From Mycetocola spongiae (lineage in GTDB: Bacteria; Actinomycetota; Actinomycetes; Actinomycetales; Microbacteriaceae): a stretch of DNA of 64,000 bases. This document shows, piece by piece, positions 10,809 through 49,192 of the stretch. The translations under genes were made by a program, and so were the position numbers. Each line of letters opens with the position of its first letter. Positions within the stretch are counted from its first letter, which is position 1. The stretch lies in NCBI RefSeq assembly GCF_020424085.1, contig NZ_CP080203.1, positions 372,001-436,000 on the forward strand. Reading direction: 5' to 3'. Under the pieces are notes generated by a model. That model was given only the letters and a program-made list of their open reading frames with translations. It had not been told where the DNA came from and ran no database searches.

Positions 10809-11813
10809 TTAGGGCAGAACGACGACCTGGGCGCCAAATACGAGGCCGGCGCCGAAGCCGATCTGCAGGGCGAGGCCGCCGCTGAGCTCGGGGTTTTCCC
10901 GGAGCAGGCGGTGCGTGGCGAGGGGGATCGAGGCCGCGGAGGTATTGCCGGTATCGGCGATATCGCGGGCGATCACCACGGACTCGGGCAGCTTCAGCTG
11001 CTTCGCGAACTCGTCCACGATGCGCATATTTGCCTGGTGCGGGATAAATGCCGCCAGGTCGCTTGCCTCGATGCCCGCGGCGTCCAGGGCCTGTCGGGCC
11101 ACCTTGGCCATGTCCCAGACGGCCCAGCGGAAGACCGAGGGGCCCTCCTGGCGCAGCGTGGGCCACGGGGCCTCGCCATCGCGGAACTGGGTCAGGGTGG
11201 CGTTCATGCCGACCTTATCGGCGCTGGAACCATCCGAGCCCCAGATGGTCTCGGAGATGCCGGGGAACTCGGAGGGGCCCACGACGGCGGCGCCGGCGCC
11301 ATCGCCGAGCAGGAAGGAGATGCTGCGGTCGGTGGGGTCGATCACATCGGAGAGCTTCTCCGCACCGATGACCACGGCATAGTGGGCGGCCCCGGCGCGA
11401 ATCAGCGCGTCCGCCTGAGCGATGGCATAGGCATAACCCGCACATGCGGCGTTGAGGTCATAGGCCGCGGCGGGGTTGGCGCCGATGCGGTCGGCCACCA
11501 CGGCGGCCATCGACGGGGTCTGCTGCACATTGGAGATGGTGGCTACCAGCACCAGGTCCACGAGCGCGGGGTCGATTCCGGCGGCCGCGATGGCCTCGGT
11601 GGCGGCCTCGGTGGCGAGGTCAATCGCGCTGATGTCGTGGGACGCGCGGGTGCGGGTGATCACACCGGTGCGCTGCTGGATCCACTCATCGGAGGAATTA
11701 ATGGGTTCGATAATCTCCGAATTGGGGACCACGAGGTCGCCGCGCGCGGCGCCCATTCCGAGGATGCGGGTGAACGCGGGGCCGGTGGCCTGCTTCAGGG
11801 TGGGGCGTGACAT
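10809..11813 (-). CDS. fabH: Beta-ketoacyl-ACP synthase III
   Basis: FabH starts each fatty acid by condensing a primer acyl-CoA with malonyl-ACP. In this group the primers are often branched acyl-CoAs, giving iso/anteiso fatty acids. The 334 residues contain Cys124 (NAACAGYAY), His259 (IPHQANMRI) and Asn290 (DTGNTSAAS). Its ATG directly abuts the TAG of fabD (no gap), so translation is probably coupled. Branched-primer preference is inferred from the lineage, not visible here. Confidence 0.96.
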   Translation of the reverse strand: MSRPTLKQATGPAFTRILGMGAARGDLVVPNSEIIEPINSSDEWIQQRTGVITRTRASHDISAIDLATEAATEAIAAAGIDPALVDLVLVATISNVQQTPSMAAVVADRIGANPAAAYDLNAACAGYAYAIAQADALIRAGAAHYAVVIGAEKLSDVIDPTDRSISFLLGDGAGAAVVGPSEFPGISETIWGSDGSSADKVGMNATLTQFRDGEAPWPTLRQEGPSVFRWAVWDMAKVARQALDAAGIEASDLAAFIPHQANMRIVDEFAKQLKLPESVVIARDIADTGNTSAASIPLATHRLLRENPELSGGLALQIGFGAGLVFGAQVVVLP

Positions 11814-17481: not shown

Positions 17482-17483
17482 GC

Positions 17484-17579
17484 GGCGTCTCCTAGGTGGC
17501 GTATTCGGCGGGCTGCACGATCACCCGACCCGGCGTCTCCTAGGCGGCGTATTCCGCGGGCTGCACGATCACCCAGCCC
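17484..17579. repeat. Tandem 48-bp duplication of the AIM24 gene's 3' end
   Basis: Units 17484-17531 and 17532-17579 match at 44 of 48 positions. The second unit holds the last codons and stop of the AIM24 gene; the first is a non-coding copy that would encode nearly the same tail (VIVQPAEYA). A shorter similar stretch overlaps the ahpE stop at about 17470-17490. Confidence 0.9.
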
Positions 17580-18199
17580 GGGCCGTGGAAGACATACTGG
17601 AAGGCCTCTCCCGAACCGCGCCCGATCAGCGCGCCCGCGGACATCGAGGATTTCACCTGCGGCTGGAGCGAGGCCGACCAGGCCACGGTCGCGTGCATAT
17701 CGGTAAACAGCGGCTGCTGGGAGCAGTCAAAGATGATCGGCTCGCCGTGCGCGGCAATCGCGAGGCTGCCATACCCGGAGACGGTGGTGTTCCACATTCC
17801 GCTCAGCAGCATGCTTGACCCCTTGACCCGGGTGAGGTCATAGGTCAGCGAGTCCTGGAAGGCAAGCAGATTGGTGCCGCTTACGGTCACGGCCTCGTGC
17901 TCCAGCTGTAGCAGGTGGATGCGCGCCTTATTCTGGGCAAAATACGCCTCGCCGTTGCCGCTCACGCGCATCAGGGGCTGATCCTCATTGGATACCATTT
18001 TGCGCATGAACTGCGCGGCATCGCGCGCACCCTGGTGCTTAAACTCCAGGTTGCCCTGATAGGCGATCATCGCTCCCTTGCGGGTGATCAGGTCATTTCC
18101 CGGCGTGATCCGGGACTGCAACGTGTAGTCGTTATGCAGGCGCATCGGGTCCTGGGTATGAGAAGTGTTATTGCCTTTATCAAATAGCGTGGAGCGCAT
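17540..18199 (-). CDS. AIM24 family protein
   Basis: This 219-residue beta-rich protein belongs to the AIM24/DUF124 family. Family features include the glycine-patterned strands around MIAYQGNLEF and the late GRGSGEAFQYVFHGPGWVIVQ segment. AIM24 was first named in mitochondria; bacterial members are often encoded near stress or membrane genes and have no assigned biochemical activity. There is no signal peptide. The ATG at 18199 has a modest AGAGAAAG ribosome-binding site. Its 3' end has been duplicated in tandem into the ahpE intergenic gap. Confidence 0.85.
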   Translation of the reverse strand: MRSTLFDKGNNTSHTQDPMRLHNDYTLQSRITPGNDLITRKGAMIAYQGNLEFKHQGARDAAQFMRKMVSNEDQPLMRVSGNGEAYFAQNKARIHLLQLEHEAVTVSGTNLLAFQDSLTYDLTRVKGSSMLLSGMWNTTVSGYGSLAIAAHGEPIIFDCSQQPLFTDMHATVAWSASLQPQVKSSMSAGALIGRGSGEAFQYVFHGPGWVIVQPAEYAA

Positions 18200-28175: not shown

Positions 28176-28547
28176 GTGAATGGGTCGGCAAGACGACCGC
28201 GGCGCCGGTAACGGCGGCGAGGAACGTCCGGGCTCCGCAGAGCAGGGCGGTGGGTAACGCCCACCCGGGGTAACCCGCGAGACAGTGCAACAGAAAATAG
28301 ACCGCCACGCGCCCCCGGGCGCGGGGTAAGGGTGAAAAGGTGGTGTAAGAGACCACCAGCGGCCGGGGTGACCCGGTCGGATCGGTAAACCTCGCCCGGA
28401 GCAAGATCAGACAGAAAACCATGGGGCTGCTCGTCCCGTTTTCGGGTAGATCGCTTGAGCCCGTCGGCAACGGCGGGCCTAGATAGATGGTCGTCCAGGA
28501 TGAGAGATCATCCCAACAGAACCCGGCGTATCAGCCGGCCCATTCAC
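28176..28547 (+). ncRNA. rnpB: RNase P RNA (class A)
   Basis: This is the catalytic RNA that matures tRNA 5' ends. Hallmarks include GAGGAACGTCCGGGCTCC, GGTAACGCCCA, ACAGTGCAACAGAAA, AGGGTGAAAAGGTGGTGTAA and GATAGATGGTCGTCC. The P1 helix pairs GTGAATGGGTCGG (28176-28188) with CCGGCCCATTCAC (28535-28547) and fixes both ends. A TAAACT box at 28163-28168 ends 7 nt before the 5' end. A decayed tandem repeat begins exactly where the RNA ends. Confidence 0.95.
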
Positions 28548-28825
28548 CTCAACCGGCCTCCGCGGACTCCGGCCAGGCCACTGCGTCATAGGCTCGGGCC
28601 ACCTCAACCGGCCTCCGCGGTCCCGGTCAGGTCACCGTGCCGCAGGCCCGGGTCACCTCAACCCGCCTCCGCGGTCCCCGGTCAGAGCACTGTGCCGTAG
28701 GCCCGGGTCACCTCAGCCGGTTCGCCTGAGCTGCCGTGATCCGATGGGATCGCCGTTCCGTAGGCCCGGGCACCCCGAACCGGGCGGCCTATCCAACCGG
28801 CGGCCCGGCCCGAAGCGTTCGGACC
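28545..28825. repeat. Decayed tandem repeat, about 55 bp unit, downstream of rnpB
   Basis: Units begin CACCTCA at 28545, 28600, 28654 and 28709, with lengths 55, 54, 55 and 62 bp; a degraded fifth starts near 28771. Each unit ends with a GGCYCGGG-like motif and holds the self-complementary core GGCCTCCGCGG. I see no reading frame conserved across the units. The rest of the gap up to ppgK is also GC-rich and non-coding. It may act as a terminator array or be a remnant element. Confidence 0.85.
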
Positions 28826-44465: not shown

Positions 44466-45197
44466 TTAGCGTGCGCGCTGCGGGCGAACCTTGAAGGGGT
44501 CAACACCCTTGGGGATCGGCAGGCTGTTGCCGAGCGAGGACAGGCGGTTGCTCACGGCAAGAACCTCGGGCTTGGTGAGGTTCTTCTTGACCTTGCGGAG
44601 GGTCTTGGGGAGACGGTGCAGCGGCACCGAGTCCTCATCCGGACCCACATAGAACGTGGTGATCGGGACGTTGGGAAGGATGCGGGCGACCTTGCGGCGC
44701 TCATCGTCCAGCAGGCGCTTGGTGCGCGACTGCGGACCCTCGGCCACGAGGGCTACGCCGCCGCGACCGACGGCGCGGTATACGGCGTCCTGGGTGCGCG
44801 GGTTAACGTGCACGGGCATTTCCTCGCCGCGCCAGCCGCGGGGCAGGGAACTGCGGAAGATGGCACCGACGGCGCCGGGCTGCCCCTCGATCTGCGAGTA
44901 GGCGGCGCGCTCGGCGCGGCGGCCGAGGATGATCATGGCGCCGAGGATACCGGCGAAGAAGCCGGCGATGATCCACATGACGGTGCCAAATACGTTACCG
45001 CTGCTCAGCCACAGGGCGAGCGCAAGACCCAAAACCAGGCCGCCCACGAGGGACAGGGCCATGTACCAGACCACGCTTGAGTCATGCTTGCGGGTCATCT
45101 GGAAGACCTGCCACATTTGCTTAAAGCGGCCGGGTTCCTTATTGGCCTTCTTCAGGGCCTTCTTCTGAGCCTTTTCGGCCTTATCCATACGTGCCAT
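44466..45197 (-). CDS. DUF4191 family membrane protein
   Basis: This 243-residue actinobacterial protein has a very basic N-terminus (MARMDKAEKAQKKALKKANK), then two adjacent membrane helices (about 45-90) and a soluble C-terminal half. The function is unknown, though the family is well conserved. The ATG is 7 nt after TATCCT on the minus strand, the leaderless pattern. Its position beside RDD and glnA1, and near sucB-lpd, recurs in relatives as I recall. Confidence 0.88.
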   Translation of the reverse strand: MARMDKAEKAQKKALKKANKEPGRFKQMWQVFQMTRKHDSSVVWYMALSLVGGLVLGLALALWLSSGNVFGTVMWIIAGFFAGILGAMIILGRRAERAAYSQIEGQPGAVGAIFRSSLPRGWRGEEMPVHVNPRTQDAVYRAVGRGGVALVAEGPQSRTKRLLDDERRKVARILPNVPITTFYVGPDEDSVPLHRLPKTLRKVKKNLTKPEVLAVSNRLSSLGNSLPIPKGVDPFKVRPQRAR

Positions 45198-45324
45198 GAC
45201 ACCAAGGATACCGGCAATCGGTCTCCGCCGAGTACCGCTATCCACCGATTTTCGCGGAGGGCTGGTTTTCCACAAATTATGGAGGGCCGCGGCCGCCGCA
45301 GGGGGGATCGGATTTACTGGGTAA

Positions 45325-47853
45325 ATGAGACGAGAACGCGGCGGCCCGGGTGTCCTGGGCGAGAGAAATAGGGATCCGGAGGGTGCCGTTTGGGTCCGGA
45401 GCCCGGGTGCCTTTTCCGTGTCAAGCGGAGAGGGGGCCGGCGAGGGTGAGGGGGAGCGCGGCGGAGGTTATGGAGGTCGTGGCGGTGACAGGGGCAGTGG
45501 CGGTGAGAGAGGCAGTGGATGCGACCGAGGCAGTGGATGCGCCAGGGGTATGGGTAGTGGCGTGAGCTGTGGCGGCGGGGCAGCGGCCATGAGCGGTGGG
45601 GGCGCCCGGGCGTGCGCCGGAACGGCGTCGGATCTGTCCGAGCCGGGTCTTTGCGAAACGGCTGTTTCCGAACCTGGTCATTCCGAACCTGGTCATTCCG
45701 AACCAGGTCATTCCGAACCAGGTCATTCCGAACCCGGTCATTCCGAACCAGGTCATTCCGAACCAGGTCTTTTTGAACCGGGTCTTTCCAGGGTGTTCCC
45801 TGCCGACGCGGAGCGCGCCGCCGTGGCGGCTCGTTATGCGCCGGGCCCGGGCCTGCCCCTGGCCGAGGCCCTGCGCGTCCTCGCCGATCACCCGCGCGGG
45901 GTGGTCCTCAATCTGCTCCTCCCCGTGCCCGGGCTCCTGGCCCGGCGTGCGGACGCCGCCCATTCCTTGCGGCGGTTGGGCGGCCCCGTGGTCTCCGGGA
46001 GCTTTCCTCCGGGCGAGGCCGAGGGCCTCCCCGCCGCGGCTTCACAAGAGTCCTCCCCGCCTGCCCGCTGGCGTCGGGGCGGCCTGCCCGGGCGAGGCCC
46101 GGGCAGCGGGCGGCGGGGGTGCGGCGCGAGGGCCACCCTGGGGTGGCGGGGCCGGCTATCTGCGGGCAATACACCCGTTGAGGAGGGGGTATGGGGTGAG
46201 CGGTGTCGTCCAAAACGCGGGAGGCCGTCGTCCCCGTGGGCGCCCCTGCCGCCGGGGCCTCCTCCGGGAAAGTGGGAGCCCGGGCGAACGCGGGCATCCG
46301 GGTACATGCGGGTGGCGGGGTACATATGTGATGCAGGGCCCACGCGGGAGGCTGGGTCCACATGGGAGGTGGGGGAGCGGCACGGCGACCCTCGCGCCGA
46401 TGGCTCGGCGGCGGAGGTGGGGACACGGGCGTCGGGGCGGGGAGACAAGCGTGGGGCGGTCGTGGCCGTGGCCGCAGCGCCCGAGTGGCCGCGGCCGGTA
46501 TCCTTAGCCGATCTGAGTGTTGATGGTCGTGGTCGCGCGCGGTTGAGGGCGGGGTTTTTCCCGTGTCCCGCCGATCCCCTGTGTGGTTTTGCCGATCTGG
46601 TGCGGGAAATCGCGCAATTACGCTCGGATCCCGAACTCGGGGCCTGCGCGGAGGAACTCAACGAGGCGCGGGTGGCCTTACCCCGAGGCGATACAGTCGC
46701 CGTCGCCGGTGACGGTGCAGGTGCAAATGCACGTTCCGGTGGATGTGCGGGTGGAGATGGTGATGGCGATGGAGGATCCAGTACCTGTGGAGGCGCCAGT
46801 GCCAGTGCCCGTGCCCGTGCCAGTGCAGGTGGAGGGGCCCGTGCCGGTGGCGATGGAGGTGGAGATGCAAGTACAGGTACATGTGCTGGTGCTGGTGCTG
46901 GTGGAGGCGCCGGTGGAGATGCCGTGCAGATAACCAAGGAGGCGATGGCAGGGGGCAGCCCGCCCGGCGGCACGGCGCGGGCTCCATTGGACGATACTGC
47001 CGGGGGCGCGCGCGGCGCGGGGGCTCGACCCCTGCGGTCGTGGGTCGCGCTCGGCGGCGGGGAAGAACGCGAGGAGGGGCCGAGGCCGCGGGTGGCGCTC
47101 CGGCGCGGGGTACTGGAGCGGCACTACGCCCGCGCGCGGGTGGGTACGGCGACGGGTGTGGGGGTGCCCGGTCCGCAGCCGGCGGAATCGCGGTGCCTGA
47201 ACACGGCGGTCCCGGAAGGAGCGCCTGGCGCCGCGGAGGATTCCGCACCCCCTGCCCCGGTTTGGGCTGGTGTGGGCGCCCCGCCCGGATGCCCCGCGGG
47301 AGCGTTCAGTCCGGTGGCATGCGCACCGCCCGCGGGAGACTCCCGATCCCGACCGCAGCGGCGGCCACGGCGCACGCACATGCCGGCGGAACCGGCCTCC
47401 GAAGGCCCTCCCGATCCGCGAGACCGCACGGCGCCGCGGTGTATCGAATCCGCGCCCGGCACCCGCGGCGGTGCACGGCGCGGGCACGACACGCCCGCGC
47501 CTCGCGCGCGCGGCGGTGAGCGGTGCGGGCGGGACACGTCCGTTCCCCTCGGGGCTCCAGAATCGCCCCGGCCCGCGCCCACCCGAGGCTGCGCGCGCTG
47601 CGAGACCCGGGGTCCGCCCGCCGCGGCGGACGCGTGGAACCGGGCCCGACTCGTCGAGCATCGGCTGCGCGCCCTCGGCCCGCCGCTGCCCGTATTGCTT
47701 CCGGCCGCGCTCCTCGCGCCGCAGGATGCGCCCCCGGAAACGCCGAAGGCCGGCACCCTCCCGCGAGGGAAAGGTACCGGCCCTGGACGATGGCTCGTAT
47801 GGCTTAGAGGCCGAGCGAACCCTCGAAGTTCCCGGCCTCAAGGCGAGCCTTGA
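45325..47853 (+). CDS. Low-complexity Gly/Ala/Arg-rich ORF of unknown function, possibly kinase-like
   Basis: This 842-residue ORF is dominated by Gly/Ala/Pro/Arg. It carries a GHSEP pentapeptide array (45666-45780), Gly-rich segments, and a (GTGCCN)n-like stretch (46690-46930). Two stretches look like true protein and keep GC-rich third codon positions. One is around residues 174-222 ([20 protein letters not shown]). The other is around 393-440 ([14 protein letters not shown]...[16 protein letters not shown]), which vaguely resembles kinase-like lobes; that resemblance is a guess. The start is uncertain (ATG 45325 or a later one). It overlaps the sucB 3' end by 50 bp. Long opposite-strand frames are considered shadows. 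Confidence 0.4.
45637..45792. repeat. 15-bp tandem repeat (GGTCATTCCGAACCA)
   Basis: About eight near-identical 15-mers run from 45666 with two or three diverged edge copies; the plus frame reads GHSEP, the minus frame FGMT(W/R). The period is a multiple of three, so the reading frame is kept. Confidence 0.95.
46690..46930. repeat. Low-complexity GTG/GGTGC-rich tract
   Basis: This is a run of hexanucleotide-like units (GTGCCN, GGTGGN) with alternating purine/pyrimidine stretches. All plus frames are repetitive (Gly/Ala/Ser or Val/Pro). It could adopt unusual DNA structure; that is inference. Confidence 0.85.
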
Positions 47854-49192
47854 TGGTGGTGAGGAACTTGGCGGCATCCGCGCCGTCCACGATGCGGTGA
47901 TCATAGGACAGGGCCAGGAAGACCATCGAGCGGATAGCAATCGAGTCCACGCCGCCATTGGAGATCACGGCGGGCTTCTTCGCGACGATTCCGGTACCCA
48001 GGATGGCGCTCTGGGGCAGGAATACCAGCGGGGTGTCAAACAGCGCGCCACGCGAACCGGTGTTGGTCAGCGTGAACGTGCCGCCCGACAGCTCATCCGG
48101 GGTGAGCTTATTATCGCGGGTACGCGCAGCCAGATCGGCGATCTCGGTGGCGAGGTCGGCAATGGACAGCTCGCCCGCGTCGCGCACGACGGGGGTCAGC
48201 AGGCCACGCTCGGTCTCCACGGCAATCGAGATGTTCTCGGTGGCCGGGTACACGATGTCGGTGCCATCAACGGTGGCGTTGATGATCGGCACCTGACGCA
48301 GGGCCTCGGCCGCGGCCAGGGCGAAGAACGGCAGGAACGACAGCTTGGTGCCGGTCTTCTCCAGGAACTCGGCCTTGACCTTATCGCGGAAGAGGGCCAC
48401 GTTGGTGACGTCAACCTCAACCATGGTGGTCAGCTGAGCGGTCTGCTGCATCGAGGCCACGGCACGCTCGGCCACAACCTTACGCAGGCGGCTCATCTTG
48501 GCGGTGGTGCCACGCAGCGGCGAAATCTCCACGGGTGCGGCGGCCGCGGGGGCCGATGCGCCGGGGGTTGCTGCCGCGGCGGCGGCGAGAACGTCCTCCT
48601 TGCGGATGCGTCCTCCCACTCCGGTGCCCACGACGGTGTCGAGGTTTACACCCTCCTGCTGAGCCAGGCGGCGCACCAGGGGGGTGACATAGCCGGTGCC
48701 ACCGGCTGCTGCGGCGGCCGGCGCGGCGGGTGCCGCTACCGGTGCGGTGGGGGCTGCTACCGGTGCGGTGGGTGCCGCCACGGGGGCGGTGGGAGCGGCG
48801 ACCGGTGCGGTCGGGGCTGCCACGGGAGCCACGGGAGCAACCGGTGCCACGGGGGCGGCCGGTGCCGGTGTGGCGGGTGCCGGTGTGGCGGGTGCCGGAG
48901 CCGCGGCGGGCTCGGCGGCGGCGGGTGCCGCGGGAGCTGCTGCGCCCGCGCCGGAACCGTCACCAATCTTCACGAGAACGGCGCCAACCTCGACGGTCTC
49001 GTCCTCTTCCACGAGGATCTCCTCGATTACGCCGGCAATCGGCGAGGGGATCTCGGTGTCGACCTTATCGGTGGAGACCTCGAGCAGCGGCTCGTCTACC
49101 TCAACATGGTCGCCAACATTTTTTAGCCAACGGGTTACCGTACCCTCGGTGACGCTTTCACCGAGTGCAGGAAGGACCACGGATTCGCTCAT
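47804..49192 (-). CDS. sucB: Lipoyl E2 acyltransferase (dihydrolipoamide succinyl/acetyltransferase)
   Basis: E2 of a 2-oxoacid dehydrogenase complex, 462 residues. It has one lipoyl domain (Lys43 in STDKVDTE) and a long Ala/Pro linker (about 85-165) built on APTAPVA-type heptads. An E3-binding domain follows (around [14 protein letters not shown]). The catalytic domain holds DHRIVDG (His432, Asp436). Actinobacterial E2 can serve both the pyruvate and 2-oxoglutarate complexes; assignment between SucB and AceF is therefore open. It is the last gene of pepA-lpd-sucB. The heptad linker expands at the DNA level as 21-bp units at about 48700-48800. Confidence 0.93.

Follow-up and report, generated by a model that had tools for sequence, protein, structure and literature searches.

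A repeat-rich open frame beside sucB in Mycetocola spongiae as a candidate eroded antisense pseudokinase gene

An antisense pseudokinase family between sucB and DUF4191

PknB-type Ser/Thr kinases share their fold with a family of proteins encoded between sucB and a DUF4191 gene in Microbacteriaceae. We examined this slot in a 64,000-nucleotide stretch of the Mycetocola spongiae genome (contig NZ_CP080203.1, positions 372,001 to 436,000; referred to below as the window), where an unusual repeat-containing frame had been described from the sequence alone. The preliminary description proposed comparing the same interval in related genomes, and we ran this comparison on 11 stretches from other genomes and then on 80 loci of named genomes (L101-L180), using a family profile built from 29 slot proteins. 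A gene matching the profile, on the strand opposite DUF4191, was found in 74 of the 80 loci. It lay between sucB and DUF4191 in all 71 loci in which both the gene and sucB were in view, and lipB-lipA often follow it within the same slot. The six loci without the gene comprise three from Mycetocola, considered below, and L105, L155 and L156, whose contigs stop no more than 376 bp upstream of the DUF4191 match.

The relationship of the slot family to protein kinases was recognized in both profile and structure searches. The Pfam Pkinase profile (PF00069) matched 16 of 28 aligned slot proteins (alignment A1) at E ≤ 0.01. AlphaFold modeling of the slot protein from L130 with alignment A1 gave a kinase-like fold with a mean pLDDT of 79.4, a long helix at the hydrophobic stretch and a separate small helix-strand domain. 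The 50 Foldseek matches listed for this model were all protein kinases, PknB included. The HRD motif is missing from all 74 slot proteins, and DFG is missing by pattern from 73 (the exception is L135). In a 101-row alignment, the two cysteines of the outer domain are each present in 87 rows and the tryptophan of its EAGWRLR motif in 91. The W-R motif and the Cys pair are each found in 62 of the 74 slot proteins; some of the 12 proteins without the W-R motif lack it owing to a contig end. These features suggest that the family consists of membrane pseudokinases with a kinase fold that is probably dead for catalysis, one membrane helix and a Cys-pair outer domain, which may be NTF2-like in appearance. 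The slot pseudokinases of L104, L114, L116, L132 (Leifsonia) and L170 (Rathayibacter) end shortly past the membrane helix, without the W-R motif, and by eye the slot protein of genome G006 (locus L070) does the same. The family seems to have lost its outer domain on more than one occasion.

Of 59 genomes sampled from the wider order, 17 matched the family at E ≤ 1e-25. The match in G025 is no more than about 6 kb away from lipA and DUF4191. Of three further genomes sampled from Microbacteriaceae, one had no match at this threshold. A search of the open-access literature returned no paper joining Microbacteriaceae with pseudokinases, and related term combinations were likewise empty. The antisense pseudokinase family of Microbacteriaceae is apparently undescribed so far, and the comparison brings to light a widespread gene linked with the sucB/lip locus in these bacteria.

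The slot in Mycetocola and its open frame

The slot of the window extends from the DUF4191 start to the sucB stop (45195-47803). Its edges are the DUF4191 membrane protein gene (44466-45194, minus strand) and sucB (47804-49192, minus strand), which codes for a 2-oxoacid dehydrogenase acyltransferase. In three sister Mycetocola species the slot is empty (3 of 3 congeners), with about 0.11 kb separating sucB from DUF4191. The best DUF4191 protein matches in named genomes came from Mycetocola lacteus, M. tolaasinivorans and M. saprophilus, and a tree built from 988 columns of lpd, sucB and DUF4191 (18 rows) placed the window as sister to the three Mycetocola with a support of 1.000. Because the window groups with these congeners and the slot gene is present in other relatives, the gene is older than the genus. 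Elsewhere in the four Mycetocola genomes, no match to the family profile extended as far as its C-terminal domain. The loss of the pseudokinase gene in a single genus provides natural knock-outs for finding its role.

The preliminary description placed lip genes or a hypothetical gene at this position in relatives. This agrees with the 74 loci that carry the pseudokinase gene, often with lipB-lipA after it, and fails for the three congeners, which carry neither kind of gene here. It was also correct that lipA and lipB are absent from the locus: no LipA or LipB homology was found in the window, which rules them out as the content of the slot. Their absence is not special, because lipB and lipA lie next to each other elsewhere in all four Mycetocola genomes (at about 32-34 kb of contig G000:C1 in the genome of the window).

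The slot of the window contains an open frame of 842 codons with an ATG start (45325-47853, plus strand). Flanked by sucB and DUF4191 and antisense to both, it shares with the slot pseudokinase genes a similar start and end beside the same neighbors. In contrast to those genes, the frame is at least 1.5 times as long, is laden with repeats and runs into sucB. It overlaps the sucB end (47804) by 50 bp, compared with 17 bp or less for the slot genes of relatives (n = 71). In doing so it reads through a hairpin 3' of sucB (47746-47784, minus strand), which was identified by folding and is a probable terminator. This hairpin has a z of -3.1, and hairpins at the same place in two folded congener loci have z values of -4.1 and -6.8; a terminator pattern scan did not list the hairpin of the window. 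Inside sucB, the linker (48711-48933) is an Ala/Pro-rich repeat array. Arrays were found in sucB in 73 of 75 relatives' loci, so the linker array is usual.

Tandem arrays are spread along the frame, all on the plus strand. An 18-bp array of 3.2 copies (45479-45536) codes for a Gly/Ser/Arg-rich stretch and is followed by a 15-bp array of 8.3 copies (45666-45789) that encodes GHSEP pentapeptides, with six occurrences of GHSEP in the translation of the frame. Farther along are a weak 18-bp array of 3.6 copies (46310-46373), a cluster of 6-, 24- and 30-bp arrays (46795-46864) in which the 6-bp GTGCCN run occupies 46795-46826 and a further array 46807-46864, and a 45-bp array of 2.1 copies (47450-47542). 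Every repeat unit in the frame (15, 18, 6, 24, 30 and 45 bp) is a multiple of three. Tandem arrays make up 16.5% of the frame bases outside sucB, compared with 2.0% in the 74 slot genes of relatives, 27 of which also contain repeats. The corresponding share in the rest of the window, with sucB set aside, is 0.65%. These coordinates and counts bear out the preliminary description of an 842-codon frame with repeats and a 50-bp overlap with sucB.

We asked how readily such a frame would arise by chance in DNA with the composition of this interval (73.2% G+C). The 826 codons outside sucB contain no in-frame stop, compared with an expectation of 13.0-14.5 from local or dinucleotide shuffles, and none of 1600 shuffles gave a zero-stop outcome. 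The longest open stretch in the six frames is 826 codons; in the shuffles this length averaged 308-386 and never exceeded 825. Among order-3 Markov sequences (n = 1000), 0.5% reached an open stretch of 826 codons in any frame. Stops are also scarce in other frames of the interval, with 3 and 6 in two minus-strand frames and 8 in a plus-strand frame. The frame exceeds its chance length, though only moderately, given DNA of 73% G+C.

The codon usage of the frame does not resemble that of the relatives' genes. Its codon score was -24.1 per 30 codons, compared with +2.0 for the slot genes (sd 4.9, lowest -9.0; n = 59), a gap that is exaggerated and partly compositional, because the interval has a higher G+C content than the training genes, from which the control genes differ less. 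The best score of the six frames (-19.1) belonged to a minus-strand frame, compared with 45 of 59 relatives' genes in which the gene's own frame scored best. Outside the arrays, the G+C content by codon position is 0.79/0.71/0.72; five of six training genes have low second-position and high third-position G+C. The normal-looking, GC3-biased segments noted in the preliminary description are present mainly at about 45800-45990 and more weakly at about 47005-47125 and 47545-47665, but the codon usage of the frame as a whole is not coding-like. No ribosome-binding site was seen by eye upstream of the frame, and a scan for a sigma-70-like promoter gave no match at an expectation of merely 0.1. Searches of Pfam, NCBIfam and PHROG with the frame returned no match. 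The single Rfam match in the interval was below threshold (E = 0.79) and was judged to be chance, which disposed of an RNA gene as a candidate.

Family features in the open frame

We searched the frame for the features that define the slot family. With bias correction, the family profile gave the frame E = 1 and no match over the kinase-like domain. The frame also gave no kinase match in the domain searches. The uncorrected full-profile match (E = 5e-9) consisted of pieces on low-complexity stretches and was rejected. None of eight family patterns, including the hallmark motifs, was found in the ORF frame, and a lone Cys-pair pattern in a different frame was judged to be chance. The outer domain, with its Cys pair and E-A-G-W-R-[LI]-R end, is absent from the ORF frame. 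There is no clear membrane helix: the highest 19-residue hydropathy is 1.32 (aa 781-799), and the helix-block profile did not match (p = 0.46).

Tests for dispersed or degraded similarity gave values near the border of significance. With the most permissive gap cost, a chain test against the family gave p = 0.053. Two stricter costs gave 0.28 and 0.40, and a wrong-strand frame reached p = 0.047. A chain alignment at the DNA level, with its background taken from the plus frame, was discarded as the minus strand scored higher. Eight single-block profiles gave uncorrected p values of 0.010, 0.033 and 0.042 for three blocks, null results for four and no match for one. When three blocks picked by AlphaFold confidence were scored in order, p was 0.042 and the true order scored highest of the six orders. 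An ungapped block scan of the window, with log-odds that favor rare residues, gave no block a score above chance (best p per ORF 0.415), and profile-profile comparison gave P values of 0.07-0.23 per block. In pairwise tests of four segments against ten relatives, two comparisons stood at 0 of 200 shuffles (L130 with block D and L165 with block A); the remaining results were scattered and often not colinear.

The blocks themselves differ in character. Block A (aa 151-210, 45775-45954, plus strand) has the most coding-like composition, and its similarity to the pseudokinase family is weak and inconsistent. Block B (aa 381-460, 46465-46704, plus strand) has a low-confidence AlphaFold single-sequence model in which aa 394-407 form a helix-strand-5-strand arrangement as in the catalytic-loop region of L130 (residues 129-142), followed by two helices. 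The placement of blocks A and B within the family profile differs between methods. Local similarity is best in block D (aa 751-800, 47575-47724, plus strand), which resembles the end of the pseudokinase domain, at ESRLFELGPPAPV of L130. AlphaFold modeling of the frame without an alignment gave a mean pLDDT of 35.7, with 810 of 842 residues below 50, and the highest confidences fell in three blocks that also gave weak family matches.

Similarity was also sought at the level of whole genomes. When blastn was run without a low-complexity filter, the frame matched pseudokinase genes of relatives with E values down to 5e-8, on mixed strands and at unrelated positions, and we rejected these matches as G+C-rich chance. 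A match in G017 (E = 2.7e-6) was rejected as well, since it covers only aa 72-153, the low-complexity Gly-rich and GHSEP stretch. A search with aa 156-802 against 150 genomes of the family Microbacteriaceae found only the genome of the window, and copies elsewhere in this genome were limited to short weak matches.

Proposed erosion of the slot gene and competing explanations

The preliminary description left the choice between a rapidly expanding protein and a pseudogene in decay. Because 74 of 80 relatives' loci carry the slot gene and the three congeners do not, the comparison favors decay, but the homology is not significant and the frame is open beyond easy chance, so that an expanding protein stays in contention. 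We favor, with a probability of about 50%, that the frame is the pseudokinase gene of the slot at a late stage of erosion with repeat expansion, and that its product, if any, is probably non-functional. The slot with its usual content, the empty slot of the sisters, the repeats and the missing family features are observed directly. Descent from the pseudokinase gene, which the position of the frame favors and its sequence leaves unproven, and loss of function are inferred. Like bacterial pseudogenes in general, the frame has lost domains, has non-coding codon usage and corresponds to a gene absent from sister species. Unlike them, it has no stop and no visible frameshift. The open frame means that erosion is either recent or incomplete, and the loss of family likeness over 826 codons without a stop speaks against old decay, because a long-dead gene should have acquired stops.

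Under this model of erosion, the antisense pseudokinase gene would have lost constraint in the Mycetocola lineage. The three sister species would then have deleted it, with about 0.11 kb remaining, and the species of the window would have kept the DNA, in which short G+C-rich units slipped and were duplicated in place, reworking the frame. Growth of the repeats may have separated the old domains or taken their place, so that the membrane helix and outer domain are gone, and the frame may have been extended beyond its former end, across the sucB hairpin and into sucB. The locus would then represent a case of gene erosion with its state before (the 74 relatives), half-way (the window) and after (the three sisters). 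Erosion as a phenomenon is ordinary, and what this work yields beside it, a conserved family of antisense pseudokinases, is of greater value.

We weighed three other explanations. The frame might be a living gene that succeeded the pseudokinase and evolves fast, and in which the frame was kept while whole-codon insertions added low-complexity, probably disordered sequence, perhaps around fragments of the kinase C-lobe. The stop-free length (P of about 0.005 or less), the repeat units in multiples of three, the coincidence of the top AlphaFold confidences with the three weakly matching blocks and the repeats in relatives' genes all agree with this possibility. We nevertheless consider it unlikely, as the codon usage is not coding-like and is bettered on the minus strand, membrane helix and outer-domain motif are both missing, the frame passes through the sucB hairpin, the signals for translation and transcription sought upstream were not found, the model confidence is low and the sister species live without the gene. 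It is more doubtful still that the frame is translated and that, in one species, a membrane pseudokinase has become a soluble, mostly disordered repeat protein with shards of the kinase C-lobe left. If true, the frame would offer a snapshot of a folded signaling protein dissolving into a low-complexity one with its frame kept.

The slot might instead have been filled by unrelated DNA, as G+C-rich filler or an insertion that followed deletion of the gene, with the long frame a by-product of the few stops in its repeats. The absence of significant homology to the slot family or to the 150 genomes is what such an origin would give, as is the scarcity of stops in several frames. We judge it improbable given that the frame sits in the pseudokinase slot, that copies in the genome are limited to short weak matches with no phage family match, that the open length has a P of about 0.005 and that there are hints of colinear blocks. 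An assembly or sequencing error in the repeat-rich stretch is very improbable. Repeat arrays are error-prone and the species is represented by one genome, but this genome is a single contig of 3,196,754 bases rated 100% complete, and an error would not make 2.6 kb of non-homologous DNA where the sisters have 0.11 kb.

Pentapeptide arrays and long-unit arrays were also seen outside the frame. In locus L067 (genome G011), a 15-bp tandem repeat coding for GAGMT/GHACP pentapeptides adjoins lipA at about 11690-11780. Its unit length is similar to that of the GHSEP array, and its origin is probably independent. The window itself contains two more long-unit tandem arrays, at 17483-17581 and 28544-28720, with units of 48 and 55 bp.
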